This document shows, piece after piece, positions 7,194 to 37,294 of a stretch of 38,680 nucleotides of DNA. Source of the DNA: Bacteroidota bacterium (GTDB taxonomy: Bacteria; Bacteroidota; Bacteroidia; Palsa-948); NCBI GenBank assembly GCA_016213405.1, contig JACRAM010000051.1, positions 1 to 38,680 on the forward strand, in the 5' to 3' direction. A model generated the notes under the pieces. It searched no databases and was not told the origin of the DNA. It saw nothing but the letters and a program-made list of their open reading frames with translations. Position 1 is the stretch's first letter, and each line of letters begins with the position of its first letter. The position numbers and the translations under genes were made by a program.

Positions 7194-8795
7194 ATGAGAG
7201 TTTCATTACTCCTTTTCGCGATTTGCTTTTCTTTCTCTTCATTCGCGCAAAATAATATTTCCGTTACCAAAGACAAAACCAACGGCTTTGATGAGAAATT
7301 ACTGAGAGAGAAAATGAAAAATGACGGTTTGCCTCAACCGGTAATTGACAAACTCATCGCCCAGCGGAAAGAATTGTTTGCAAAAGGAAAAAATGTGGAA
7401 TGGACTAAGGTGAAAAAAAATTCTGTTACCAATGCCGCTTGTTCTGATATGGGAGCAGAAAACGGATGGGGGACGTGGCTTGGAGATGTGGGAAATGCAA
7501 ACTCCGGTGCACCGCCAACATGGACTCCGCCTGCAGCACTTCCTGCAACTCCAAATTTCAGCATCACAACAGGAAGCGGTTTTGATGCAAACACACCCGG
7601 CCCGAATGCGGGTGATCCTACTATTCCTTTTGTATGCCCGGGTTTTGGAAACGCCTCCATACAATTAGGCGAAACCTGCGTGGCGGGTTGTGTAGCAGAG
7701 CAGCTAACCTATCCTTTAACCATTACCCTTGCTGATACAAATTTTCTTTACGCTTATGCAATTGTTATAGAAGATGCAGGTCATGCTCCTTCCGACCAGC
7801 CCTTTGTAAATTTTTCTCTTTATGATCAAAGTGGTAATCTGGTTCCACAGTGTGCAAATTTTACTTACACAGGAGGTCCCTCCATTCCTGGTTTTTATTC
7901 TGTGAGCGGAACCGGCTGTGGTTGGGCGGGAGCAGATCAGTACAAACCATGGACAATCGTAGGAGTAAATCTTACTCCATATATTGGAACAACAGTTACA
8001 GCTGTAATTACAAATGTTGATTGTGCACAGTGCGGACACTGGGCATATTCTTACTGGGATTTTTTATGCGGCAGCATTCCCCTGTCAAGTTGTTCGGGCA
8101 GCCAGTCCACCATCTGCGGACCCATTGACCCCAACATATCGTATACCTATCAATGGTATCAGAATGGAAATGCCATGCCTCCTCCCACCGGAACTCAGCA
8201 ATGCATTTCTATTGTGCCCAATTCAGGAGACTCTTTTTTGGTGGAAGTGCAGCAGCCATCCGGTTGCAATTTTCATATGAGCTATGTGGCATCAGGTTCT
8301 CCCATGCAGGCGTTGTTTACTTATATTGCAAATGGCAATACCATTACGTTTACAAATCTTTCGAACGGAGCAAGCAGTTACGTATGGAATTTTGGAGACG
8401 GCAACACCAGCACTGCACAGAATCCGGTTTATACTTATTCCGCGATAGGAACTTATACCGTTTGCCTTGTCGCCAGCACATTTGGGTGTTCCGACACTGT
8501 TTGTAAAGTTATAAGTCTGACACCCATTGCCGTCAATGAATACGATTTATTTTCTTCCGTTTCAATTTTTCCAAACCCTGTTTCAGGAAATTTATTTCTT
8601 GATTTCGGTAATATAAATTTCGGCAAGGCAGAAGTTTCATTCAGCGATATAATCGGACAAACTCTTTTTGAAACAACTATTCCCGCAAGCGGAAAACAAG
8701 CGCTGGATGTTTCCGGATTTTTAAAAGGACTGTATTTTCTCAAACTCAAAACCGATTCAGGAAGTGTAACGAAGAAAATTGTTATTGCCCGATAG
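7194..8795 (+). CDS. Secreted PKD-domain protein with T9SS type A sorting domain
   Basis: A 533-residue predicted exported protein. The signal peptide is MRVSLLLFAICFSFSSFAQ. A charged helical segment at about 30-75 precedes a large Cys- and Gly-rich beta domain at about 80-290, of the kind seen in Bacteroidota gliding or adhesin proteins (SIQLGETCVAGC, CGHWAYSYWDFLCG). An Ig-like segment lies at about 295-370, a PKD domain at about 372-445 (YVWNFGDGNTS), and a type A T9SS sorting domain from about 455 (IFPNPVSGNLFLDFG, ending VTKKIVIAR). It lies 96 bp after the other PKD gene and may be co-transcribed. The ligand is unknown. Confidence 0.88.
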   Translation: MRVSLLLFAICFSFSSFAQNNISVTKDKTNGFDEKLLREKMKNDGLPQPVIDKLIAQRKELFAKGKNVEWTKVKKNSVTNAACSDMGAENGWGTWLGDVGNANSGAPPTWTPPAALPATPNFSITTGSGFDANTPGPNAGDPTIPFVCPGFGNASIQLGETCVAGCVAEQLTYPLTITLADTNFLYAYAIVIEDAGHAPSDQPFVNFSLYDQSGNLVPQCANFTYTGGPSIPGFYSVSGTGCGWAGADQYKPWTIVGVNLTPYIGTTVTAVITNVDCAQCGHWAYSYWDFLCGSIPLSSCSGSQSTICGPIDPNISYTYQWYQNGNAMPPPTGTQQCISIVPNSGDSFLVEVQQPSGCNFHMSYVASGSPMQALFTYIANGNTITFTNLSNGASSYVWNFGDGNTSTAQNPVYTYSAIGTYTVCLVASTFGCSDTVCKVISLTPIAVNEYDLFSSVSIFPNPVSGNLFLDFGNINFGKAEVSFSDIIGQTLFETTIPASGKQALDVSGFLKGLYFLKLKTDSGSVTKKIVIAR

Positions 8796-8841
8796 CAAGT
8801 CCTCTTCAACGGGGACGGAGGATTTAGGTGGGGCTTGGCTT

Positions 8842-10032
8842 TTATTTTTTTATCGCCCCCAACTCCTTCCCCACCTTTTCAAAAGCCGCAATCGCTTTAT
8901 CCAAATGCTCTTTTTCATGCGCGGCAGAAAGCTGCACGCGAATTCTTGCCTGCCCTTTCGGAACAACCGGAAAGAAAAATCCAATCACATAAATTCCTTC
9001 CTGCAAAAGTTTGTCGGCAAAGGTTTGAGAAAGTTTTGCATCATATAACATCACAGGGACAATAGCGGAATCTCCGTCTTTGATTTCTAATCCAATTTTT
9101 TTTATTCCTTCTTTGAAATAGTTAACATTCCATTCAAGTTTATCGCGTAGGGCTGTGGTTTCGTTCAGCATGTCAAGTACGGCAATGGAGGCACCCACAA
9201 TACTTGGAGCAAGCGAGTTAGAAAATAAATACGGACGCGAACGCTGCCGTAGCATATCAATAATTTCTTTTTTGCTGCTTGTGAATCCACCCATCGCACC
9301 GCCCAATGCTTTTCCTAAAGTTCCTGTTACAATATCCACGCGGTGCATTACATTTTTCAGTTCAATGGTTCCTCTTCCTGTTTTGCCGATGAAACCACTG
9401 GCATGACTTTCATCTACCATCACCATTGCATTATATTTTTCCGCGAGGTCACAGATTTTATCAAGAGGTGCTACAAACCCATCCATCGAGAAAACTCCAT
9501 CGGTAACAATCAAACGAAACCGTTGCTTCTGTGCCTGCTTCAATTGCTCTTCTAAATCATTCATGTCAGAATTCTTATAGCGGTAACGCTGCGCTTTGCA
9601 CAAACGCACTCCGTCTATAATCGAAGCATGATTCAGTTCATCAGAAATAATGGCATCTTCTTCTCCCAGCAAACATTCAAACACGCCACCGTTCGCATCA
9701 AAACAGGCGGCATATAAAATGGTGTCTTCCTGCCCAACAAACTTGGAGATTTTTTCTTCCAGCGTTTTGTGAATGTCCTGCGTGCCGCATATGAAACGCA
9801 CGGAACTCATTCCGTATCCGTGTTCATCCAGCGTTTTTTTTGCTGACGTCACCACTTTCGGATGAGAGGAAAGACCAAGATAATTATTCGCACAAAAAAT
9901 AATTACTTCTTTGCCGTTCACCTTCACCACAGCGCCTTGCTTGGTTGTGATGACGCGCTCACGTTTGAAAAGTCCGTTTTCTTCGATGGACTTTAATTCT
10001 TTCTGGAGATGCTGTTTGAAATTTCCTAACAT
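8842..10032 (-). CDS. kbl: Glycine C-acetyltransferase (2-amino-3-ketobutyrate CoA ligase)
   Basis: A PLP enzyme that cleaves 2-amino-3-oxobutanoate with CoA into glycine and acetyl-CoA, the second step of threonine degradation. The 396 residues match Kbl length. Visible motifs are [12 protein letters not shown] near 49-60, VDESHASGF, and [10 protein letters not shown] carrying the Schiff-base lysine. The chosen ATG at 10030-10032 aligns with the family N-terminus (MLGNFKQHL); upstream in-frame codons overlap the promoter region. The alpha-oxoamine synthase family also includes BioF and serine palmitoyltransferase; the KRERVI and FCANNYLG context favours Kbl. No threonine dehydrogenase gene is adjacent. 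Confidence 0.92.
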
Positions 10033-25324: not shown

Positions 25325-26605
25325 ATGAAATCCAAAAAAGAAGCTTACGGTTTACTGTCTACTGTTTACGGTTTTTTAAACTATAAACTTGTTGTGTTGT
25401 TATTTGTATTAACTGTAAACTGTAAACTAGAGACTGTAAATTGTTTTGCCCAGGAACTTGTTCAGGACCGGGATTTTCAGCAGGGATTTTATGTGAGAGA
25501 CAGGTTCTCCGGATTATTTGCAGGACCAATAACTTGCGACAGCACACTTGCCTCTCCTGTGTGGAATACTGCTGAATGGGGAAGCCAAACCACTTTTCTT
25601 GCTATGACACCTTCCACTTTGCCTGATAGCATGTGCCAGTGGGCAGATAACAACAAAGATTTTCGTTTCGGTACATTGGGCGCAGAAGAATATGAGTTGT
25701 ACTTTGGCGTAAACTCTCAAAGTGAATTCAACAACATTTACCGCGCAAACGGAGAGCCATGGCCACATCTTTTGATTGAGCAGCGATTCAGCCCTCCCTA
25801 TGATTTTCCGGGTCAGGGTCCGGGCTGCCCGTCTATTTCAACTCTTGATTCTTTAATCTTTCAGATTGACTCGAAACTTTTATACAACCAGACCATCATG
25901 ACTACCGGATACGATCCTAGTTTGCATGCAGCAGAATTTTTGGTGTATTTTACTGTGCAAAACTTAAACGTGTCTTCGTCTGGTTACGGTAAGTATGTAT
26001 GGTTAGGAATGCAATTGTATGACGATAGATTTGCAATTCCCTACGCTGGTGTTTCTTATGATACCGCCACCGCTACTTTAATAAACCAAATACCCTATTA
26101 TGATTATTCAAGTGAAACCACTCACAACGGAACTTGGGTGCATGCTCAAGTCAATTTAATTCCTTACGTGATTGCCGCTCTTGATACCGCTTGGGCAAAT
26201 GGGTTTTTAAACGAGTCCACCGATCTTGCAGATTACAAAATAGGCGGAATGAATATGGGTTGGGAACTTCCGGGAATGAATATCTCTACTGTTGGAGTGA
26301 AAGGAATAAGTCTGGTTGCTTATCAGGCAGTAACAGGAGTAAACCAACTAGAAAATGAAAATGCTCATTCGGTGAACATTTACCCAAATCCTTCCAACGG
26401 AACATTTCAAATACAAGTGGCAGGAGGCAGCAGCAATGAATACAAAATAGAAATCTATAATGTTTTTGGAGAGAAAATACATTCCTCAGCGATGAATAAT
26501 GAACGATTAACAATTAATATGAGCGGAGCGAATAGCGAAATTTATTTTCTGAATATAAAAGCTGGCGACATGCCCATCACTCGAAAACTAATTATTCAAA
26601 AATAA
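25325..26605 (+). CDS. Secreted protein with T9SS type A sorting domain
   Basis: A 426-residue protein starting MKSKKEAYGLLSTVYGFL; the hydrophobic stretch LVVLLFVLTVN followed by FAQ serves as the signal peptide. Both flanks of that segment are coded by 7-bp-period repeats (25343-25377 and 25411-25445), which makes the leader unusually long (about 43 residues). The middle (about 44-340) is a beta-rich domain of no recognised family. The type A sorting domain runs from about 345 (VNIYPNPSNGTFQIQV to LIIQK), with another heptamer array coding NNERLTIN. The next gene starts 1 bp after the stop, so this is the front of the adhesin operon. Confidence 0.82.
   Translation: MKSKKEAYGLLSTVYGFLNYKLVVLLFVLTVNCKLETVNCFAQELVQDRDFQQGFYVRDRFSGLFAGPITCDSTLASPVWNTAEWGSQTTFLAMTPSTLPDSMCQWADNNKDFRFGTLGAEEYELYFGVNSQSEFNNIYRANGEPWPHLLIEQRFSPPYDFPGQGPGCPSISTLDSLIFQIDSKLLYNQTIMTTGYDPSLHAAEFLVYFTVQNLNVSSSGYGKYVWLGMQLYDDRFAIPYAGVSYDTATATLINQIPYYDYSSETTHNGTWVHAQVNLIPYVIAALDTAWANGFLNESTDLADYKIGGMNMGWELPGMNISTVGVKGISLVAYQAVTGVNQLENENAHSVNIYPNPSNGTFQIQVAGGSSNEYKIEIYNVFGEKIHSSAMNNERLTINMSGANSEIYFLNIKAGDMPITRKLIIQK
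25343..25377. repeat. Degenerate 7-bp-period repeat array (gtttact type), 5 units
   Basis: Heptamers gcttacg, gtttact, gtctact, gtttacg, gtttttt run without a break inside the signal-peptide coding region. The array at 25411-25445 carries roughly the complementary heptamer, so the two could pair across about 33 bases. Confidence 0.8.
25411..25445. repeat. Degenerate 7-bp-period repeat array (aactgta type), 5 units
   Basis: Heptamers aactgta, aactgta, aactaga, gactgta, aattgtt code the residues around TVNCKLETVNCF at the signal-peptide end. Two units are identical. Confidence 0.8.
26495..26522. repeat. Degenerate 7-bp-period repeat array (aacNatt), about 4 units
   Basis: Heptamers aataatg, aacgatt, aacaatt, aatatga lie inside the sorting domain of the secreted protein and code NNERLTIN. 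They share a 16-base identical stretch with the intergenic array at 1292-1319. Confidence 0.7.
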
Positions 26606-26606
26606 A

Positions 26607-29600
26607 ATGAAAACAAAAATAATTCTCCTTTCAGTAATTCTTTTTGTTATTGCTGATTGCTTTTTCCCGAACATTTCTTTTTCGCAAATCAAATGGCAGC
26701 AAAATCCTTTTGAGCAAAAGGTATTTGTCGAAAATAAGGGACAGTTTGATAGCTGGGTTAAAACACCTGCTCCTGTAAAGTATGCTGTAAATAATAGCGA
26801 TAAGATTTTCTTTACACAGCAAGGATTGACTTTTAAATTAGTAAAGACAGAAATAATCAGCGGAGAAGAACAAGAACTTGAAGAAATGGAAAGGAAAAAA
26901 GATAAGGAAGCAGCTGATGCTTATTATGTAAATATGCAATGGGAAGGATGCAATGAAAATCCTGTTTTAGAAGTAAGTGAAGAAACAGAAGGATATTACA
27001 CATTTGGAGAAAAAGGATTTGAAAACATAAAAGCAAAAGGATATAGAAAATTAGTATACAAAGAACTTTATAACGGAATAGATGCGGAATATATTGTATC
27101 TGAAAAAGGTGGAATAAAATATTCATTAATCATTCATCCTAGAGCAGATGTCAGCAAAATAAAAATGAAATACACCGGAGATGTTGAAAAAATGGAAATC
27201 TCCAAAGATGGAAACATCCTGATAAAAACTCATGTGGGTGAAATAACAGACCACGCCCCTCTGAGTTTTTACAAAGAAACTTCTGAAAAAATAAATTCAG
27301 CTTTTGAATTAAAAGGAAACACCGTTTCTTTTGCTTTAAATCGCAAATCGCAAATCGCAAATCTCAAATCTACTGTCATAGACCCCTGGACAACCACCCC
27401 TACAAGTTTGACCACAAACAATGCCGCCTTTGATATAGATTATGATTATTATGGAAATGTATATGTTTCAGGTGGAAATTACCCGTATAAACTTGCTAAA
27501 TATTCTTCGGGCGGAAGTTTGCTTTGGACTTTTACCGTTCCTGCAGGGTGGGGACCAATGTACACTCGGTTTTGCCTTTTGCGTCAGAGCGGAACTTCTT
27601 TTATTGGCGAAGCTTCTACTAATCCCGGTACGAGAGTAATGAAAATAAGTTCGGGTGGAACCCTTCAACTTACTTCAGCATCTTTTTCAGGCACAAACGA
27701 AATCTGGAAAATGGTTTATAACGGCTGCACTAAGCAGTTAATCGGATTTGGTGGCGGAATATTTGGACCTAAGAATATACAGCTGATTGCCGATACGAAT
27801 TTAACAAGCAGTACCGCTCAAAATTTCAATGGTTACGGAACACCCACTGATTGTTGTAATGATATTGCTTCAGTTGTAATGGATAATAATGGAGATTTTT
27901 TTGCTATGACAACATCCTATACTGGTCTTGTAAGCGTGGATGACAGAATACAAAAAAGTTTGAATTCTTCAGGGTATAATCCTCCTTGTGCATTTGATGT
28001 GATTTCATCTTATGATTATGAAGAGTGCCGCAATTTTGGTATTCCGGGTTTTGCAGGTTTATGTTCCAGTGGAACTGTGAGAGCAAATGCGTTGGATGTA
28101 AACACAAGTTACCTGTATAGTTACGATGGAAAAACTTTAATTGCATGGAACAAAACTACAGGAGTTGTGCTGGGTTCTGTAACAGTTAATTTTGGATATT
28201 CTGCCGGAAAAAACAGAACTCACGAAGGAATAGCTGTGGATGAATGTAATAATGTATATGTTGGCGGCACAAATCAAGTGCATGTTTATTCTTTTAACGG
28301 AACAACATTTACTGTCGGAACTCCCTTAACATCAAATATTCCAAATGAAGTTTATGATGTATGTTTGGGACAGATGAATAAATTGTATGTGTGTGGAGAT
28401 GGGTTTGTTACCGAACTTCAGATAACTTCCACCCTATGCAATCAGATGAACTTAACAACTGCTTCCACTAATTCATCCTGCAGCACTCCGACAGGTTCTG
28501 CAACCGTAACCGCAACGGGAGGAAATCCACCTTATACTTATTTGTGGAATCCCACAGGACAAACTACACAAACAGCAACAGGACTGCCGCCCGGAACATA
28601 CACAGTAACTGTATTTGATAATTCCTGTAAGCCAAAGATACAAATAGACACTGTGGTTATTTCCAGCATCGGAGGTTTTACAGTTGCAAGCACACAATCA
28701 AATATAAGCTGCAACGGTGGAAGCAACGGAAGCAGCACAGCAACTGTTACCGGAGGCACATCTCCTTTCACCTATAGTTGGTCTCCAAGTGGCGGCACAA
28801 ATGCAACTGCAACGGGTTTGAGTCAGGGAACTTATACTGCAACCGTTACCGATGCTGCGGGTTGTGTTCAGCAACTAACAGTAACCATTACTCAACCCAC
28901 ACTGCTCACTTCCAGTGTTACTGCCATATCCACTACATGCGGAAGCAATACCGGCAGCGCGACTGTAACAGCATCGGGCGGCACAGGCGGATATAGTTAT
29001 AACTGGAATCCTTCCGGACAAACAACAACAACTGCTACCGGATTATCAGCAGGAAATTATTCGATTACAGTATCTGATGCAAATGGGTGTACTACAATTA
29101 ATACTATTTCGGTTACATCTACCGGAAGTATTACAGCCACAGCGGGACCAAATAGCACAATTTGTTCCGGGCAAACAGCAACACTTACTTCATCAGGCGG
29201 AACAAATTATTCATGGAGTAACGGAAATACAAATTCAACTATCAATGTTTCACCTACAACAAATACAACTTACGCGGTTATTGTTTCAAATGGTTCGTGT
29301 GCTGACACTGCATATGCAACAGTGACCGTAAATTCATCACCGGTAATTTCTGTTTCGGGAAATACAGTGCTTTGTGTTGGAGATATTTCAACACTTACAG
29401 CAACAGGCGGAACAAATTATTCCTGGAGCAACGGAAGTACTTCCTCAATAATTAATGTTTCTCCAAGCACAACTACAACGTATACAATTTTTTCTTCGAA
29501 TAGCACATGCACGAGCGCAGTTTCTGTAATCGTTACCGTTTCTCCTCCACCAATCGCTTCAGCAAATAACGCAACCATCTGCGAAGGACAAAGCGCTTTG

Positions 29601-30269
29601 CTTACAGCAACAGGCGGAAGTAATTATTCATGGAGCACCGGAGCAACCACATCATCCATAACGGCTGCTGCTGCTACTGCCACTGCTACTTATACAGTAA
29701 TTGTTTCCGCAGGAAGTTGTACAGACACCACCACAGCAACAGTTGTTGTGAATCCCAATCCCACAGCAACCGCATGGAGCAATGTTACCATCACGCAGGG
29801 ACAAAGCGCAACTCTGTCTGCAAGCGGAGGAGGAACATATGTATGGAGCAATGGAGCAACCGGCTCAAACATTTCTGTTTTACCTTTGACGACAACATTA
29901 TATTGTGTAACAGTTTCAAATAGCGACTGCAATGATACCGCCTGTGTAATGGTATATGTTGAGCCGATAGATTGCGGCTATGCCGATGACCAGTTATTTA
30001 TACCTGATGCATTTTCACCCAATGGCGATACGAAGAATGATGTGCTGGGAATTTATTATCCGAACATAAGCTGCATAAAAGAATTCAATCTCATCATTTA
30101 TGACCGATGGGGAGAAAAAATATTTGAAGCGAACAAAATAGCAGATACATGGGATGGAACCTACAATGGAAAGTTGATGAATACAGCCGTGTTTGTGTAT
30201 TACATGAAAGTAAATTTTATAAACGGAAACGAAACTGTCAGGAAAGGAACTGTAAGTTTAATACGTTAA
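26607..30269 (+). CDS. Giant SprB-repeat adhesin with CHU_C (T9SS type B) domain, copy 1
   Basis: A 1220-residue predicted surface adhesin. The signal peptide (MKTKIILLSVILFVIADCFF then FSQ) is followed by an ENKGQ-type N-terminal domain at about 35-258 (KVFVENKGQFD to VIDPW), and a beta-propeller-like region to about 610. Three SprB-type repeats follow at about 612-840 (ATGGNPPYTYLWNPTGQT), then four Ig-like CHU_C-associated repeats at about 842-1115 (SWSNGNTNSTINVSP type), and a gliding-motility-associated C-terminal sorting domain from about 1118 (DAFSPNGDTKNDVLG to SLIR). A heptamer array replaces residues just before VIDPW. It starts 1 bp after the preceding gene; copy 2 begins 12 bp after its stop. 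Repeats are Thr/Ser/Gly-rich. Confidence 0.9.
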   Translation: MKTKIILLSVILFVIADCFFPNISFSQIKWQQNPFEQKVFVENKGQFDSWVKTPAPVKYAVNNSDKIFFTQQGLTFKLVKTEIISGEEQELEEMERKKDKEAADAYYVNMQWEGCNENPVLEVSEETEGYYTFGEKGFENIKAKGYRKLVYKELYNGIDAEYIVSEKGGIKYSLIIHPRADVSKIKMKYTGDVEKMEISKDGNILIKTHVGEITDHAPLSFYKETSEKINSAFELKGNTVSFALNRKSQIANLKSTVIDPWTTTPTSLTTNNAAFDIDYDYYGNVYVSGGNYPYKLAKYSSGGSLLWTFTVPAGWGPMYTRFCLLRQSGTSFIGEASTNPGTRVMKISSGGTLQLTSASFSGTNEIWKMVYNGCTKQLIGFGGGIFGPKNIQLIADTNLTSSTAQNFNGYGTPTDCCNDIASVVMDNNGDFFAMTTSYTGLVSVDDRIQKSLNSSGYNPPCAFDVISSYDYEECRNFGIPGFAGLCSSGTVRANALDVNTSYLYSYDGKTLIAWNKTTGVVLGSVTVNFGYSAGKNRTHEGIAVDECNNVYVGGTNQVHVYSFNGTTFTVGTPLTSNIPNEVYDVCLGQMNKLYVCGDGFVTELQITSTLCNQMNLTTASTNSSCSTPTGSATVTATGGNPPYTYLWNPTGQTTQTATGLPPGTYTVTVFDNSCKPKIQIDTVVISSIGGFTVASTQSNISCNGGSNGSSTATVTGGTSPFTYSWSPSGGTNATATGLSQGTYTATVTDAAGCVQQLTVTITQPTLLTSSVTAISTTCGSNTGSATVTASGGTGGYSYNWNPSGQTTTTATGLSAGNYSITVSDANGCTTINTISVTSTGSITATAGPNSTICSGQTATLTSSGGTNYSWSNGNTNSTINVSPTTNTTYAVIVSNGSCADTAYATVTVNSSPVISVSGNTVLCVGDISTLTATGGTNYSWSNGSTSSIINVSPSTTTTYTIFSSNSTCTSAVSVIVTVSPPPIASANNATICEGQSALLTATGGSNYSWSTGATTSSITAAAATATATYTVIVSAGSCTDTTTATVVVNPNPTATAWSNVTITQGQSATLSASGGGTYVWSNGATGSNISVLPLTTTLYCVTVSNSDCNDTACVMVYVEPIDCGYADDQLFIPDAFSPNGDTKNDVLGIYYPNISCIKEFNLIIYDRWGEKIFEANKIADTWDGTYNGKLMNTAVFVYYMKVNFINGNETVRKGTVSLIR
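27338..27372. repeat. 7-bp-period repeat array (aaatcgc), 5 units, inside adhesin copy 1
   Basis: Three identical aaatcgc units are followed by aaatctc and aaatcta. They code RKSQIANLKS directly before VIDPW. The two paralogues have YDKSK before IIDPW at this point, which marks the segment as foreign to the domain. Confidence 0.88.
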
Positions 30270-30281
30270 ACTGAATTATTA

Positions 30282-33200
30282 ATGAAAACAAAAAACATTT
30301 TGCCGTTGCTTATATTCTCAGGAATATTTTTAAGCCCGGCATGGTCCGCTGGCTGGATAGACAGCACGTTGTTCTCTCCCAAATTATTCATCGAGAACAG
30401 AGGGCAGTTTGATAAGGCGCCTTATCTGAAAGAATTTCCTGAAATATTATTTGCAGTTAATCACATCAACACAAAAATATTTTTCTCGAGCAATAAAATT
30501 GCTTACACGCTCCATCAAAACGAAAGGGATGAAAAAGCATTTAAAGAATTCCGGAAAGAAGAATCCAAGAAACATTCTTCCGGATTTGAAAATGAAGAAG
30601 AACTGAAATATGAACAGGAATTAAAAAGCAAAGTATTTAAATCACATATGGCGGTGGTTGATATGGAATGGTTGAACGCAAATGCAAACTGCAAAATCAT
30701 AGCAGAAGATGTTGCAAAAGAATATTTCAATTACGGAATGGATAAAGATATCAGGCAGGATATAAATTTTGTTCATGGCTACAAAAAAATCATTTATAAA
30801 AATTTATACAATGGAATAGATGTGGAATATTCTTTCCATCCGACAACAGGAATCAAATACAATATCATCGTTCATCCTGGCGCAGACGTCAGTAAAATAA
30901 AATTGAAATATTCAGGCGCTCAAAGTGTTTCGTTCGACAATGAAAATAATATCGTCATCAAAACTTCTCTGGGAAATATTATTGATCACGCACCCATCAG
31001 CTTTCAGGATAAGAACGGAGAAAAAATAAAATCAAAATTTATTTTAAAGAATAATATACTGAGTTTTCAAATTGATGAATACGATAAATCTAAAACGCTT
31101 ATTATAGATCCATGGGTAAGCAGTACGCTGCCCACACTTGACACGGCTTATGAAATTGCTGTTGATCCTGCCGGAAATGTTTTTGTTTATGGTGATTTCA
31201 ATTCTCAGGTTGTAAAATACAACAGCACCGGCACTCAGGCATGGACTTTTCTTTCATGACCAGGGTATGCATACAACGCGACATTAATAGGTGGCGATCT
31301 GGCTGTAGATCCATCCGGTAACAGTTATTGCAGCGGTTCAGAAAGTATTCGAAAAATATCTCCTGCGGGAACAAGTGTCTGGCTCTATGCTCCCACCAGG
31401 GATATCACCAACATTGCCTGCTGCGAAACGGGCTGGAGAATGGTTTTTGACCCTGCCAATAACAGATTGTATGGAGGAGGTTCGAACGCACAAACAAAAG
31501 CTACCTGGTATGATCCTGCTACCGGACTTCCCATGTGGCTGCCAAATGGATGGAACGCCTGCAATATTATTCAGGGACCCTGTCCCAGCGGTTGCCCGAA
31601 TGCGAATGGTGAAATCCGTCATATCACTCTCGCTCCGAATGGAAATTTTTATGCGTACACCGCTGTAGGAGATGGTTCAACTTCAAATAATGTTTCTACC
31701 ATTACGGGTTTTGACCCAAATTTTGTTGGCATATATCGTTCCTGCAATGTACCACCCTCTCAATATTGGACCATACCTTATCAGCCTACCATGCCTACTT
31801 ATTATGTAGGATGTTATTACATGGGGAACGGAATAGCAGCCAGCAACTGTTACATTTATATCTACACGGGAAGTGAGGTTCAGAAATTCGATATTTATGC
31901 TCCCACTTTTTTAGGCAGCACAAATATTACGAATGGAACATTGGTGATGAATTCGGGCATACTTGCCGATCTGATGAATAATTTTTATGTAGGAACTCAA
32001 ACCGGAATTTCTGCTTACGATCCTAATTTTAATTTAATCACTTCTGTTCCAACTTCCAAACCGGTCTATGATATGGCGTTTGCTCCCGGAAATAATATTG
32101 CCGCCTGCGGAATTGGTTTCGTAGGAGTTTTTGCAAATGTTGTTCAAACAGGCGCACCCATCACGTGCAATCCTTCTCCGAATTTACCTATGAGCGCTGC
32201 TGCCGATTCACTGCCCGGAACCGGATGCAGTAGCAATAACGCAATGGCTTGGGTGGATACAATTATGAACGGAACAGGACCTTATCAATATTCATGGAAC
32301 AATGGAGCCACAACAGATACAATCATTAATCTCGCTCCCGGAACTTATTCATGCACCATCATTGATGCTTCTTGTCCTGCGGAAACAACTACAGTATTCA
32401 TTACCATTCCACCTTCTTCCGGGTTTACAGTAACCCCAACATCAACTGCTAACTTATGTTTCGGAGGAACAAATGGAAGCGCGAGTGTAACTATAACCGG
32501 AGGAAGTTCGCCCTACACATATCTTTGGTCTCCTTCGGGAGGAAATAGCTCGGCTGCAACAGGACTTTCGGCAGGAAATTATACTGTTACAATAACCGAT
32601 GCGGGCGGATGCACGGGAACTCAAACCGTTTCAGTCTCACAGCCGACTGCACTTTCTGCAATTGTTAGTTCCACCGCGGAGAGTTGTGGAGGCAGTAACG
32701 GAACTGCCACTGCAACAGCATCTGGCGGAACGGGAAGTTATACTTACAGCTGGAACCCAACTTCACAGATAACGCAGACTGCTTCTAATCTTCCTGCGGG
32801 AAATTATTCAATAACTATTACCGATGCCAATGGATGCACAACAAGCAATACAGTCGTTGTAGCTGCAACAGGAAGTTTAACTGCCAATGCATCAAACAGC
32901 ACCATCTGCGCAGGACAAAACGCCTCACTTACTGCATCTGGCGGAACAAGTTATTCATGGAGCAATGGAAACACAACCGCCTTGATAAATGTTTCTCCCA
33001 CAGTAACAACCACGTATTCTGTTATTGTTTCATCCGGAACTTGCAGCGATACAGCAAGCGCAACTGTAGTTGTTAATTCTTCGCCCAATATTTCAGCGTG
33101 GAGCAACACAACCATCACAGCGGGAAGCAGCACAACACTTTCTGCTTCCGGAGGCAGTTTTTATTCATGGAGCAATGGGCAAACGTCAACTGTTATTATT

Positions 33201-33596
33201 GTTTCGCCACCCGTTACAACTATGTATTGCGTTTCTTCAAGTAACGGAACTTGTACAGATACTGCATGCGTAACTGTTTTTATTGAACCGCCTGACGATT
33301 GCAACTATGCCGATGATCAGCTTTTCATTCCCGATGCATTTTCACCCAATGGAGACACGAAGAATGATGTGCTGGGAGTTTACTATCCGAACATAAGCTG
33401 CATAAAAGAATTCATGTTCATTATTTATGACCGATGGGGAGAAAAAGTATTTGAAGCAGACAATATGAGCGTGCTGTGGGATGGAACATATAACGGGAAG
33501 ATAATGAACACTGCTGTGTTTGTCTATTATATGAAAGTAAATTTTACAAATGGAAATGAAACGGTGAGAAAGGGTAATGTGAGTTTGATTCGATAA
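30282..33596 (+). pseudogene. Giant SprB-repeat adhesin, copy 2, interrupted by an in-frame TGA
   Basis: Reading frame 30282-33596 is continuous apart from one TGA at 31257-31259 (codon 326 of 1105), with protein-like sequence on both sides in the same frame (TQAWTFLS, stop, PGYAYNATLIGGDLAVDPSGNSY). The product up to the stop has a signal peptide and the ENKGQ-type N-terminal domain (FIENRGQFD to IIDPW). After it come the propeller-like region, three SprB repeats, two Ig-like repeats (the others have four) and a CHU_C type B sorting domain (DAFSPNGDTKNDVLG to SLIR). As read, the first part would lack the sorting domain and the second a signal peptide. Explanations are a nonsense mutation, a sequencing error or stop-codon readthrough. 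It lies 12 bp after copy 1 and 8 bp before copy 3. Confidence 0.85.
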
Positions 33597-33604
33597 TTAG
33601 CGCA

Positions 33605-36600
33605 ATGATGAAAACAAAAATTATCATACTCTTTATTTTATTGTCAGGAATATTCTTTAAACCTGCCATTGGCAAAGGGTGGATGGGCACTACAGTATTC
33701 TCTCAAAAAGTTTTTATCGAAAACAAAGGACAATTTGTCGGACAAGGAGAAAATTCTTCTGCAAAAATTCTATACAGCGCTGAATTCGGACCGCAGGTTT
33801 ATTTTACAAAAAGCGGATACATTTGCCGCATGACCAAAGCCGAGCCAATTACTGAAAAAGAAAAAGAAAAGTTTTTCAAAGGGGGCGAATCGCCCTCAGA
33901 GCAAAGGCGTGAAGAAGAAGAAAATGACAAGCCAAAAACAATTATACGCACGTACGATGTGAATATGGAATGGATTGGAGCAAATCCGAATGTTGAGCTG
34001 GTTTCTGAAAATATAGTTGATGAATACTGGAACTATCTTGACCCAAATAACTCCAAGAAAAGTATTGATCGCATTTCAGGATACAAAAAAATAATTTATA
34101 GGAATCTTTACCCCAACATTGATGCTGAATATGTATTTCATAAGCAAGACGGAATAAAGTACACGTTAATTCTACATCCGGGGGCAGATGCTTCTCTGAT
34201 TAAAATGAAATATACAGGAGTCGAAAAAATTTTCAAAGATAATTTTGGAAATATCTTTTTTTCTTCCGCTGCAGGAAGTATTACCGATCATGCACCTCAA
34301 ACTTTTTACGAATCAGGGAGAGGTCAGATTTCTTCTTGCTTCAATTTAGAAAACAACATCGTTACTTTTAATCTTGGCAACTATGATAAATCCAAAACGG
34401 TAATTATTGATCCATGGATGAACAGCAGTTTAGTGCCGGCAACAACTGTAGCAGAAACTGCGGTTGATGGTGCCAATAATGTTTACATATACGGATTCAC
34501 AGGGGTACAAGCCTATACAAACACTCTTGGACAATATGTGCAGAAATACAATGCGGCCGGTGTACTTCAATGGACATTCAATTTTACACAAGCAATGCGC
34601 TACGACCAACAGACGGGCGATATTGCTGTAGACCCTGCAGGAAATTCGTATGTAACCTGCGGATTTTTTATGGTAGGATACTTTATCGCTGATTGCATGC
34701 AATCGAAATTAGATCCTTCCGGAACACTGATGTGGAATATTCAAAGTCCGAACCTGTATGAAAACTGGCGCAATGCTTTCAATTGTGATTTCACACAAGT
34801 GATACAGCTTGGATGCGGACCCGGATGTTGCGATTGGGGAAAGGGAACGATTATTAATTCAACCAATGGAGCGGAAACAGGTATGTTCAATCCTGCCGCT
34901 ACCGGGGATATAGTTGCTGCTTCTTACGGTAAGAATGGTTATTTGTATATGCTCTCTGTGAAAGATGATTACGCTGTTAATCCTCCTCCTAACGGACCTC
35001 ATCTTGCCTGCCTTGATCCTGCGACAGGATTCTCTGTAGTATTTAATAATATTTATACGGTAAATCCTGCTTTTATAGATGGATTCAATACCAATTACGG
35101 TACTTTTGGTTTTAATGGCATTGCTGCCGGATGCAGTTATCTTTATGTAAACCTCGGAGCTACACTTGAAAAAAGAGATTTGAATACGGGTGCATTGATT
35201 GGAAGCGTTGCAATTCCTGGTGGTGTTCAGTTTAGCAATTCCGGTACTGCCGTAGATAAATGCGGAAATGTTTATGTAGGATCACAGCAGGGAGTTTATG
35301 TGTATGATTCCAATTTAAGTTTGCTGACATCTTTCGCAACTCCGAGTCCGGTATTGGATATTGCTATTGGAACAGGTGGATTGTTTTATGCTGTTGGGGG
35401 AGTAAATTCAACTCCGAATGTTGGTTTTGTCGCTCAGTTCAGCATGACTTCGGTTTGCAATCCAATTACTGTTACTACCACACCAAATTCCTGTGGCGCA
35501 TCGAACATCGGCAGTGCAACAGCAACTCCTGTATTTTGTTCTGCACCTTATACCTATTTGTGGAGTACCAATCCGGCACAAACTACTCAAACTGCTACCG
35601 GGCTGGGGGGAGGAACGTATACTGTTATTGTAACAGGTGCCGGCACCTGCAATGAAATTGATACGGCAGTTGCAATTATTCCTGCCGGATTATTAATTAC
35701 ATCAGTGCCGCCTCCGACAAATGTTTCTTGCTTCGGAGGAAACAATGGTTCTGCAAATGCAACCGCAACCGGAGGAACTGCTCCCTATACATATAACTGG
35801 AATCCATCCGGACAAACAACACAAACAGTTACCGGACTTAGCGCAGGAACCTATACAGTTCTGGTAACCGATGCCGGTGGATGCACGGGTTCACAAACGG
35901 TAACTATTACTCAACCGCCTGCACTTACGGCAACAGCCAGTGCAACATCATCCTCCAGTTGCGGAAGCAACAACGGAAGCGCAACAGTAACAGCAAGCGG
36001 TGGAACAGGCGTTTATACTTATTTATGGAATCCTATTGGTGCTTCCACAGTAACTGCAACAGGATTAACCGCAGGAAATTATTCTGTGACAGTCACGGAT
36101 GCAAACGGATGTTCAATTGTTAATACGGTAACAGTTGCTTCAACCGGAAGTATTGCAGCTACTGCCGGACCAAACAGTACAATATGCACAGGACAAACTG
36201 TTATTATTAATTCTTCTGGCGGAACAAATTATTCATGGAGCAACGGACAAACAACTACCTCCATTTCTATCACACCAACAACAAATACATCTTATTCAGT
36301 TATTGTTTCAAGCGGTAGTTGTGTAGATACTGCATATGTAACAGTAACAGTCAATCCATCGCCAATAATTTCTGTTTCCGGAAACACCGTACTTTGCATA
36401 GGAGATATTTCCACGATTACAGCATCCGGAGGAACAAATTATTTCTGGAATACAGGAGACACAACTGCTGTTATAAATGTTTCTCCAAGTACAACTACTA
36501 CTTATACTGTTGTTACTTCGAATGCAAATAACTGCACAGCCACAACTACTGTCACTGTTACAGTTTCTCCTCCACCAGTTGCTGCGTCAAATAATGCAAC

Positions 36601-37294
36601 CATTTGCACAGGACAAAGCGCAACACTTACTGCATCAGGGGGAGCAATTTATTCCTGGAATACCGGAGCAATCACATCTTCTATAACGCCCTCTCCAACT
36701 TCCAACACAACGTATACTGTAATAGTATCCATCGGAAGTTGTGCAGACACTACGAGTGCCACTGTAGTTGTGAATCCGAATCCAACTGCAAGTGTAAGTT
36801 CCAATGTAACCATTACCACAGGAACCTCCACAACTCTTACCGCATCTGGCGGAGGAACTTATTCGTGGACGAACGGCTCAACAAATTCTTCTATTATTGT
36901 TGCACCTCCTCTTACAACTCTCTATTGTGTAACAGTAACAAATGCTGGAGGATGTAAAGACACTACCTGCGTTACAGTGTATGTAGAACCGATAGATTGT
37001 GACTATGCTGATGAGCAGCTATTCGTTCCAGATGCATTTTCACCCAATGGAGACACGAAGAATGATGTGCTGGGAGTTTACTATCCGAACATAAACTGTA
37101 TAAAAGAATTCATGTTCATTATTTATGACCGATGGGGAGAAAAAGTATTTGAAGCAGACAATATGAGCGTGCTGTGGGATGGAACATATAACGGGAAGAT
37201 AATGAACACTGCTGTGTTTGTCTATTACATGAAAGTAACATTTATAAACGGAAACGAAACTGTCAGAAAAGGCAATATTAGTTTAATTCAATAA
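33605..37294 (+). CDS. Giant SprB-repeat adhesin with CHU_C (T9SS type B) domain, copy 3
   Basis: A 1229-residue paralogue of copy 1. The signal peptide starts MMKTKIIILFILLSGIFFKP (the second ATG at 33608 is an equally good start). An ENKGQ-type domain occupies about 35-268 (KVFIENKGQF to IIDPW), then a propeller-like region to about 615, three SprB-type repeats (TGGTAPYTYNWNPSGQT), four Ig-like repeats in the same order as copy 1, and a CHU_C sorting domain (DAFSPNGDTKNDVLG to SLIQ). The 3' 260 bases are a mosaic, nearly identical to copy 2 and then to copy 1. It is predicted to be exported by the T9SS and attached to or assembled at the surface. A PorP/SprF-like gene follows after 52 bp. 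Confidence 0.9.
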   Translation: MMKTKIIILFILLSGIFFKPAIGKGWMGTTVFSQKVFIENKGQFVGQGENSSAKILYSAEFGPQVYFTKSGYICRMTKAEPITEKEKEKFFKGGESPSEQRREEEENDKPKTIIRTYDVNMEWIGANPNVELVSENIVDEYWNYLDPNNSKKSIDRISGYKKIIYRNLYPNIDAEYVFHKQDGIKYTLILHPGADASLIKMKYTGVEKIFKDNFGNIFFSSAAGSITDHAPQTFYESGRGQISSCFNLENNIVTFNLGNYDKSKTVIIDPWMNSSLVPATTVAETAVDGANNVYIYGFTGVQAYTNTLGQYVQKYNAAGVLQWTFNFTQAMRYDQQTGDIAVDPAGNSYVTCGFFMVGYFIADCMQSKLDPSGTLMWNIQSPNLYENWRNAFNCDFTQVIQLGCGPGCCDWGKGTIINSTNGAETGMFNPAATGDIVAASYGKNGYLYMLSVKDDYAVNPPPNGPHLACLDPATGFSVVFNNIYTVNPAFIDGFNTNYGTFGFNGIAAGCSYLYVNLGATLEKRDLNTGALIGSVAIPGGVQFSNSGTAVDKCGNVYVGSQQGVYVYDSNLSLLTSFATPSPVLDIAIGTGGLFYAVGGVNSTPNVGFVAQFSMTSVCNPITVTTTPNSCGASNIGSATATPVFCSAPYTYLWSTNPAQTTQTATGLGGGTYTVIVTGAGTCNEIDTAVAIIPAGLLITSVPPPTNVSCFGGNNGSANATATGGTAPYTYNWNPSGQTTQTVTGLSAGTYTVLVTDAGGCTGSQTVTITQPPALTATASATSSSSCGSNNGSATVTASGGTGVYTYLWNPIGASTVTATGLTAGNYSVTVTDANGCSIVNTVTVASTGSIAATAGPNSTICTGQTVIINSSGGTNYSWSNGQTTTSISITPTTNTSYSVIVSSGSCVDTAYVTVTVNPSPIISVSGNTVLCIGDISTITASGGTNYFWNTGDTTAVINVSPSTTTTYTVVTSNANNCTATTTVTVTVSPPPVAASNNATICTGQSATLTASGGAIYSWNTGAITSSITPSPTSNTTYTVIVSIGSCADTTSATVVVNPNPTASVSSNVTITTGTSTTLTASGGGTYSWTNGSTNSSIIVAPPLTTLYCVTVTNAGGCKDTTCVTVYVEPIDCDYADEQLFVPDAFSPNGDTKNDVLGVYYPNINCIKEFMFIIYDRWGEKVFEADNMSVLWDGTYNGKIMNTAVFVYYMKVTFINGNETVRKGNISLIQ

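Follow-up and report, generated by a model that had tools for sequence, protein, structure and literature searches.

Repeated replacement of small protein loops by heptanucleotide repeat arrays in an uncultured bacterium of the Bacteroidota and in its relatives

In an uncultured member of the Bacteroidota and its relatives, runs of seven-base repeats have repeatedly replaced small loops in proteins, including essential enzymes, and the repeat DNA is read as protein. The array in the window (the whole stretch of 38,680 nucleotides analysed here, from contig JACRAM010000051.1) is one instance of a recurring loop turnover in an array-rich genome, not a single in-window insertion. The pattern is a natural experiment in turning repeat DNA into protein, with one loop in several core proteins carrying different repeats across close relatives. 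It makes two questions testable: why the unit has seven bases, and whether copying or local slippage spreads the arrays. It is also a warning, as Bacteroidota peptides such as NSQLPTPNSQL and AYCLLPTAYC may stem from repeat DNA and not from shared ancestry or function.

The window array lies in the first of three related genes, copies 1 to 3. The features are as follows.

26607..30269, + strand: copy 1, the host gene, 1220 aa, with DUF7948 (aa 40-260), SprB repeats and a CHU_C type IX secretion signal
27338..27371, + strand: heptamer array, 3x AAATCGC + AAATCTC + AAATCT, encoding N245-S255 (NRKSQIANLKS) of copy 1
27372..27389, + strand: conserved TVIDPW codons, directly 3' of the array, at the end of the DUF7948 domain
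30282..31259, + strand: N-terminal part of copy 2 (DUF7948), closing at an in-frame TGA (31257-31259)
31080..31097, + strand: native loop YDKSKT of copy 2, equivalent of the array site
31440..33596, + strand: remainder of copy 2 beyond the stop (SprB repeats, CHU_C)
33605..37294, + strand: copy 3, 1229 aa, with DUF7948, SprB and CHU_C
34382..34399, + strand: native loop YDKSKT of copy 3

Copy 1 matches DUF7948 with 146.3 bits and CHU_C with 56.9 bits, both above the curated Pfam cut-off of 27. The combination of DUF7948, SprB and CHU_C makes export to the surface probable, and the product is therefore probably a T9SS surface or secreted protein. One in-frame TGA breaks copy 2, and the frame resumes beyond it to 33596 with SprB and CHU_C; this copy is either a decaying gene or the product of a sequencing or assembly error.

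The array sequence, AAATCGCAAATCGCAAATCGCAAATCTCAAATCT, begins at the third base of Leu244 and spans 34 bases or about 4.9 units, with length and identity taken from assemblies, mostly metagenome assemblies. The first-pass annotation had described a five-unit AAATCGC array; the array is real, but only three units are exact, one is a variant and one is partial. Likewise, the string RKSQIANLKST that it gave for copy 1 captures the array-coded peptide before VIDPW but omits N245 and includes the first native T. The full peptide sits directly 5' of the TVIDPW codons, where the DUF7948 domain closes. Tandem Repeats Finder reports period 7, 4.7 copies, 96% matches and a score of 59, the top heptamer row in the window, and the lag-7 score at the DNA level is 24. 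The 14-mer AAATCGCAAATCGC, a pair of units, occurs twice in the window against 0.01 expected from dinucleotide shuffles, and Markov-2 copies of the window hold a mean of 0.0 arrays of this kind. The array has no palindromic structure and, as a tandem 7-nt unit longer than chance, belongs with the heptanucleotide simple sequence repeats (LSSR/STRR-like; the STRR of cyanobacteria are heptanucleotide repeats).

In copies 2 and 3, which share 39% identity with copy 1 over the aligned region, the equivalent loop YDKSKT precedes L/V-IIDPW. The spacing from '[ST]F' to 'IDPW' is 15 residues in copy 1 versus 12 in copies 2 and 3, so the array displaced native residues with a net gain of three, in frame. 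It had been proposed that the array occupies a real coding region, at the place of native residues and with the frame kept, and this agrees with what we found, the native motif being Y[DN]xSKT. The three copies had also been read as a before/after comparison. Copies 2 and 3 do show the native YDKSKT of the family, but at only 39% identity they are paralogues and do not represent the earlier state of copy 1. A closer comparison comes from orthologues. The relatives are the same seven genomes from genus-, family- and order-level searches, plus L060 as the sole relative from a contig scan. A tree groups copy 1 with orthologues from G005, CAINEZ and G004, apart from copies 2 and 3. At the array site, L016 (G005, 65% identity to copy 1) has LEHKNNFGQTIILDPW without a repeat, a palindromic CCTGCCTCG[CT]CGGCAGGCAGG element is present twice in L060 (uncultured Bacteroidetes AlinenLipids_bin-7249, 64%), and L017 (G004, 59%) has the 14-mer AACTCCCAACGGAG twice; counting the window, one loop in four orthologues has four different contents.

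We compared this loop at 142 DUF7948 sites drawn from genus and class. When a lag-7 score of 8 or more is required, these DUF7948 genes contain 17 period-7 arrays, of which 11 fall within -60 to +5 nt of the xxIDP codons, a region covering 5.4% of the sequence. The binomial probability is 1.1e-10 with the window copy and 1.3e-9 without it, and this focus, although its statistic was defined after the window case had been seen, therefore holds without that case. Periods other than 7 show no focus on the loop at the 142 sites. The repeats occupying it are diverse.

Window: AAATCGC units
L018: AAATCTC units
L025: CCAACAT units
L027: CAAACTC units
L023: AACTCCC units
L029: AACCTGA units
L146, from a different family within the class: AGATCAA units
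L017, L022: arrays of 14-mers
L006, L007, L011, L060, L137: palindromic or hairpin-type elements

Many repeat-free homologues with SQIANLKS-like residues, which the first-pass annotation had named as the observation that would speak against it, were sought and did not appear among the 142 sites. The sole near-identical peptide, SQISNLKS in L018, is itself encoded by the AAATCTC array, and heptamer runs, now decayed, underlie the weakly similar peptides of L147 and L148. Ordinary loop divergence, with the DNA repeat as a coincidence of codons, could appeal to the 35 of 108 homologues whose loops resemble neither array nor native forms, but a lag-7 score of 24, absent from shuffles, and the concentration of period-7 arrays at the loop make it scarcely credible.

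A quick maximum-likelihood tree, inferred with the loop left out and weak at many branches, requires about 10 state changes to explain the 11 array rows; starred branches force no fewer than 7 of these. This argues for repeated colonisation of the loop. All major branches contain the native Y[DN]xxKT form, which is likely the ancestral state. A single ancestral array, inherited family-wide with its unit turned over by homogenisation, would place all arrays at the same codons, as is seen; the wide distribution of native YD.SKT, the forced changes, the interleaving of arrays, palindromes and native loops within starred clades and the like behaviour of unrelated MetH and RnpA loops make it very improbable, and on the DUF7948 tree we rejected it. 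The site colonised in this way would be a structurally tolerant surface turn before the strand xxIDPW, a reading kept conditional because the AlphaFold2 model of the domain is poor (pLDDT 45.7) and a search for a solved DUF7948 structure found none.

All DUF7948 arrays found keep the reading frame open, and the units are near-perfect in copy 1, L018 and L025. Such units in a putative surface protein would suit a phase-variation switch, whereby the protein would be turned on or off by frameshifts as single 7-base units are gained or lost. We consider this most unlikely, given that the arrays are short, that many are degenerate and that every one of them in DUF7948 leaves the frame open; as the main function it was rejected because housekeeping genes (PurD, MetH, RnpA, Mfd) bear like arrays, although the surface proteins might be an exception.

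Genes with heptamer arrays, identified by Pfam, include PurD, MetH, LysA, Mfd and RnpA. Compared with solved structures, the array is a four-residue insertion in PurD (3mjf) and a five-residue insertion in MetH (4ccz), with the rest well aligned in both, and an insertion in the otherwise alignable diaminopimelate decarboxylase LysA (2p3e) and Mfd (6x26); the RnpA match to solved structures covers the conserved core only. Single-copy orthologues from the genus allow clear comparisons for PurD, MetH and RnpA. PurD of the window genome reads HAGTSELPTPNSQPQIVTNGG, encoded by an AACTCCC array, versus HAGTTEKGEQVVTNGG in an orthologue with 88% identity, and none of six orthologues from genus relatives (81-88% identity) has the array. 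In MetH, HQQNPKSKILNPKF (AAATCCT array) stands before VAGALGPTN in the window genome, and the same loop is LADCRLPTANCF (GACTGCC array) in G003, IANCLLPTAAFF (CTGCCTA/TTGCCTA array) in G006 and GGNIPKW, without array, in G001, whose MetH is 92% identical to that of the window genome. For RnpA, the window genome carries TTGGAAT-type arrays and G004 a palindromic element; the loops of G005, G006 and G001 are short and array-free. In-frame arrays missing from orthologues are thus found in three unrelated conserved genes, PurD, MetH and RnpA. MetH and RnpA replay the DUF7948 case, with one loop holding different repeats in sister genomes. Separately, two heptamer arrays occur in one UvrD/PcrA-like helicase (L040, 17792 and 18274), one of them with the unit AAATCAC, near that of the window.

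The genome of the window was sampled as stretches totalling 428 kb, about 12% of the genome. Period 7 accounts for 48 arrays (11 per 100 kb), compared with 0-8 at every other period in the range 4-15 (8 at period 14) and with none at period 7 in Markov-1 sequence. For comparison, 240 kb contains 2 heptamer arrays in one single-contig genome of the class and 7 in another. The arrays are dispersed and enriched at period 7, as expected of LSSR/STRR-like repeats. They do not form an intergenic, single-unit population of the TAACTGA or GGGAATC type, since units are many and 37 of the 48 lie in long ORFs, an upper estimate because the ORF calls are crude and some arrays are upstream of the likely start. 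Pairs of arrays with an identical unit number 17, against 1.8 expected for random heptamers, a value reached in 0 of 2000 draws; part of the sharing comes from gene duplicates (L049 13750 and 15679), and base-composition bias could add to it.

The explanation that we favour, and regard as likely, is that dispersed heptamer DNA spreads or expands and persists where a loop or a signal-peptide core tolerates the peptide and the frame is kept. Arrays would arise at, or be copied into, many genomic places, and an array inside a gene would survive only if its peptide falls in a surface loop or signal-peptide core that tolerates it and if the net change in length preserves the frame. The tolerant turn before xxIDPW of DUF7948 would then be filled independently, in different members, by differing units and by palindromic repeats. 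Copying could proceed by microhomology-guided template switching or ectopic conversion, after which slippage would lengthen or shorten the arrays; we infer such copying plus slippage, not slippage alone. The main rival, in which slippage with a seven-base preference grows each array de novo out of a few native codons that chanced to repeat every seven bases and nothing is copied in, differs from this explanation only in the origin of each array, and our confidence in the two overlaps. Some array ends are native codons (CAGTTTACAGTTTA for QFTVY, CCTAAATT for PKF), so that expansion in place from a local seed also fits; native residues can often be read at array edges (sorting-domain FTVYS and MetH NPKF are examples), and a general bias of heptamer slippage towards 7 nt was put forward by Mrazek (2007), as relayed in PMC4679880. 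We nevertheless hold it to be doubtful: identical units recur in unrelated genes above the random level, the RnpA insert has matches at several non-coding or short-frame places of the same genome, and the YDKSKT codons (GATAAATCTAAAACG) offer little from which CCAACAT, AACCTGA or the palindromes found at that site could have grown. A bolder version, in which a dedicated and still active process makes or copies strict seven-base arrays, prefers sites before conserved beta-strand codons and remodels loops genome-wide, seems to us improbable.

Since 7 and 3 share no factor, a stop-free heptamer array gives the identical seven-residue cycle from every frame, and the frame of entry is irrelevant to the peptide. 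The C-rich strand yields polar peptides (NSQLPTP, KSQIANR), located in loops, and in several arrays the TTGCCTA-, ACTTGGA- or TATTCTG-type reading yields hydrophobic ones (AYCLLPIAYCLL, LGTWNLEL). Hydrophobic array-coded peptides make up the core of likely signal peptides at L056 7350, L051 2538, L043 15738, L047 2331, L040 9718 and L058 336, AYCLLPVAYCFSQ being one example. This sorting, polar in loops and hydrophobic in likely signal peptides, looks like selection on the product. The window has a similar case next to copy 1.

25345..25444, + strand: two degenerate heptamer runs (TTACGGT; AACTGTA) in the likely signal peptide (LLSTVYGFL...LTVNCKLETVNCFAQ) of the gene at 25325-26605

Among the longer simple repeats of many bacteria, heptamers have been reported as the commonest class (PMC4679880). 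TAACTGA arrays are intergenic in Beggiatoaceae, cyanobacteria and a few Bacteroidetes, with in-gene copies mainly at protein ends (MacGregor 2015, PMC4679880), and GGGAATC heptamer repeats are known from Xanthomonas and Nostoc (PMC4692102). Our search for papers on heptamer repeats in Bacteroidetes coding regions found only these mainly intergenic TAACTGA and GGGAATC studies. The arrays described here resemble bacterial heptanucleotide repeats, among them the LSSR of Mrazek (2007), in their strict 7-base unit, few to many copies, dispersal and scattering over taxa. They differ from TAACTGA and GGGAATC repeats, which are mainly intergenic, with a single dominant unit per genome and in-gene copies mostly at protein ends, in having many coexisting units, in lying inside conserved enzymes and in recurrently replacing the loop at one site. 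They share with contingency-locus microsatellites a tandem array in the frame of a putative surface protein, but are short, often degenerate, without sign of switching and also present in housekeeping genes.

A second parallel is offered by Rickettsia palindromic elements (RPE), reportedly described in protein-coding genes by Ogata in 2000 and 2002. They are repeat DNA lying in frame within unrelated protein-coding genes (PMC10969869), and the likeness extends to conserved genes in which the DNA is translated and tolerated. RPE are, however, palindromes of about 150 bp with conserved sequence, unlike the short window array, which has no inverted structure; RPE-like palindromes form a second class at the same loops here. 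Heptamer repeats and repeats within ORFs are known, but in the literature searched we found no description of their combination, heptamer arrays recurrently replacing one loop in orthologous core proteins.

Further candidate sites were noted. CAGTTTA-type arrays in T9SS C-terminal sorting domains (L055 19297, L056 963, L049 5778) encode QFTVYSLQFTVYSL; the QFTV of the native strand already forms a heptamer dimer, which may have seeded them. AATACTC arrays (L045 13193, L049 13750, L049 15679) encode SQYSxLNTQYY directly before the RLKQTDF that precedes sorting domains, a further candidate recurrent site. Another repeat class, a CTCCCC..GGGGAGGATTTAGGTGGGGCTT hairpin, occurs in reading frames (L052 6129 on the - strand, L049 16351, L056 9710), once directly 5' of a conserved YFIEVNPRIQVE motif in a 1197-aa frame, and in the window at 8790-8850, apparently between genes.
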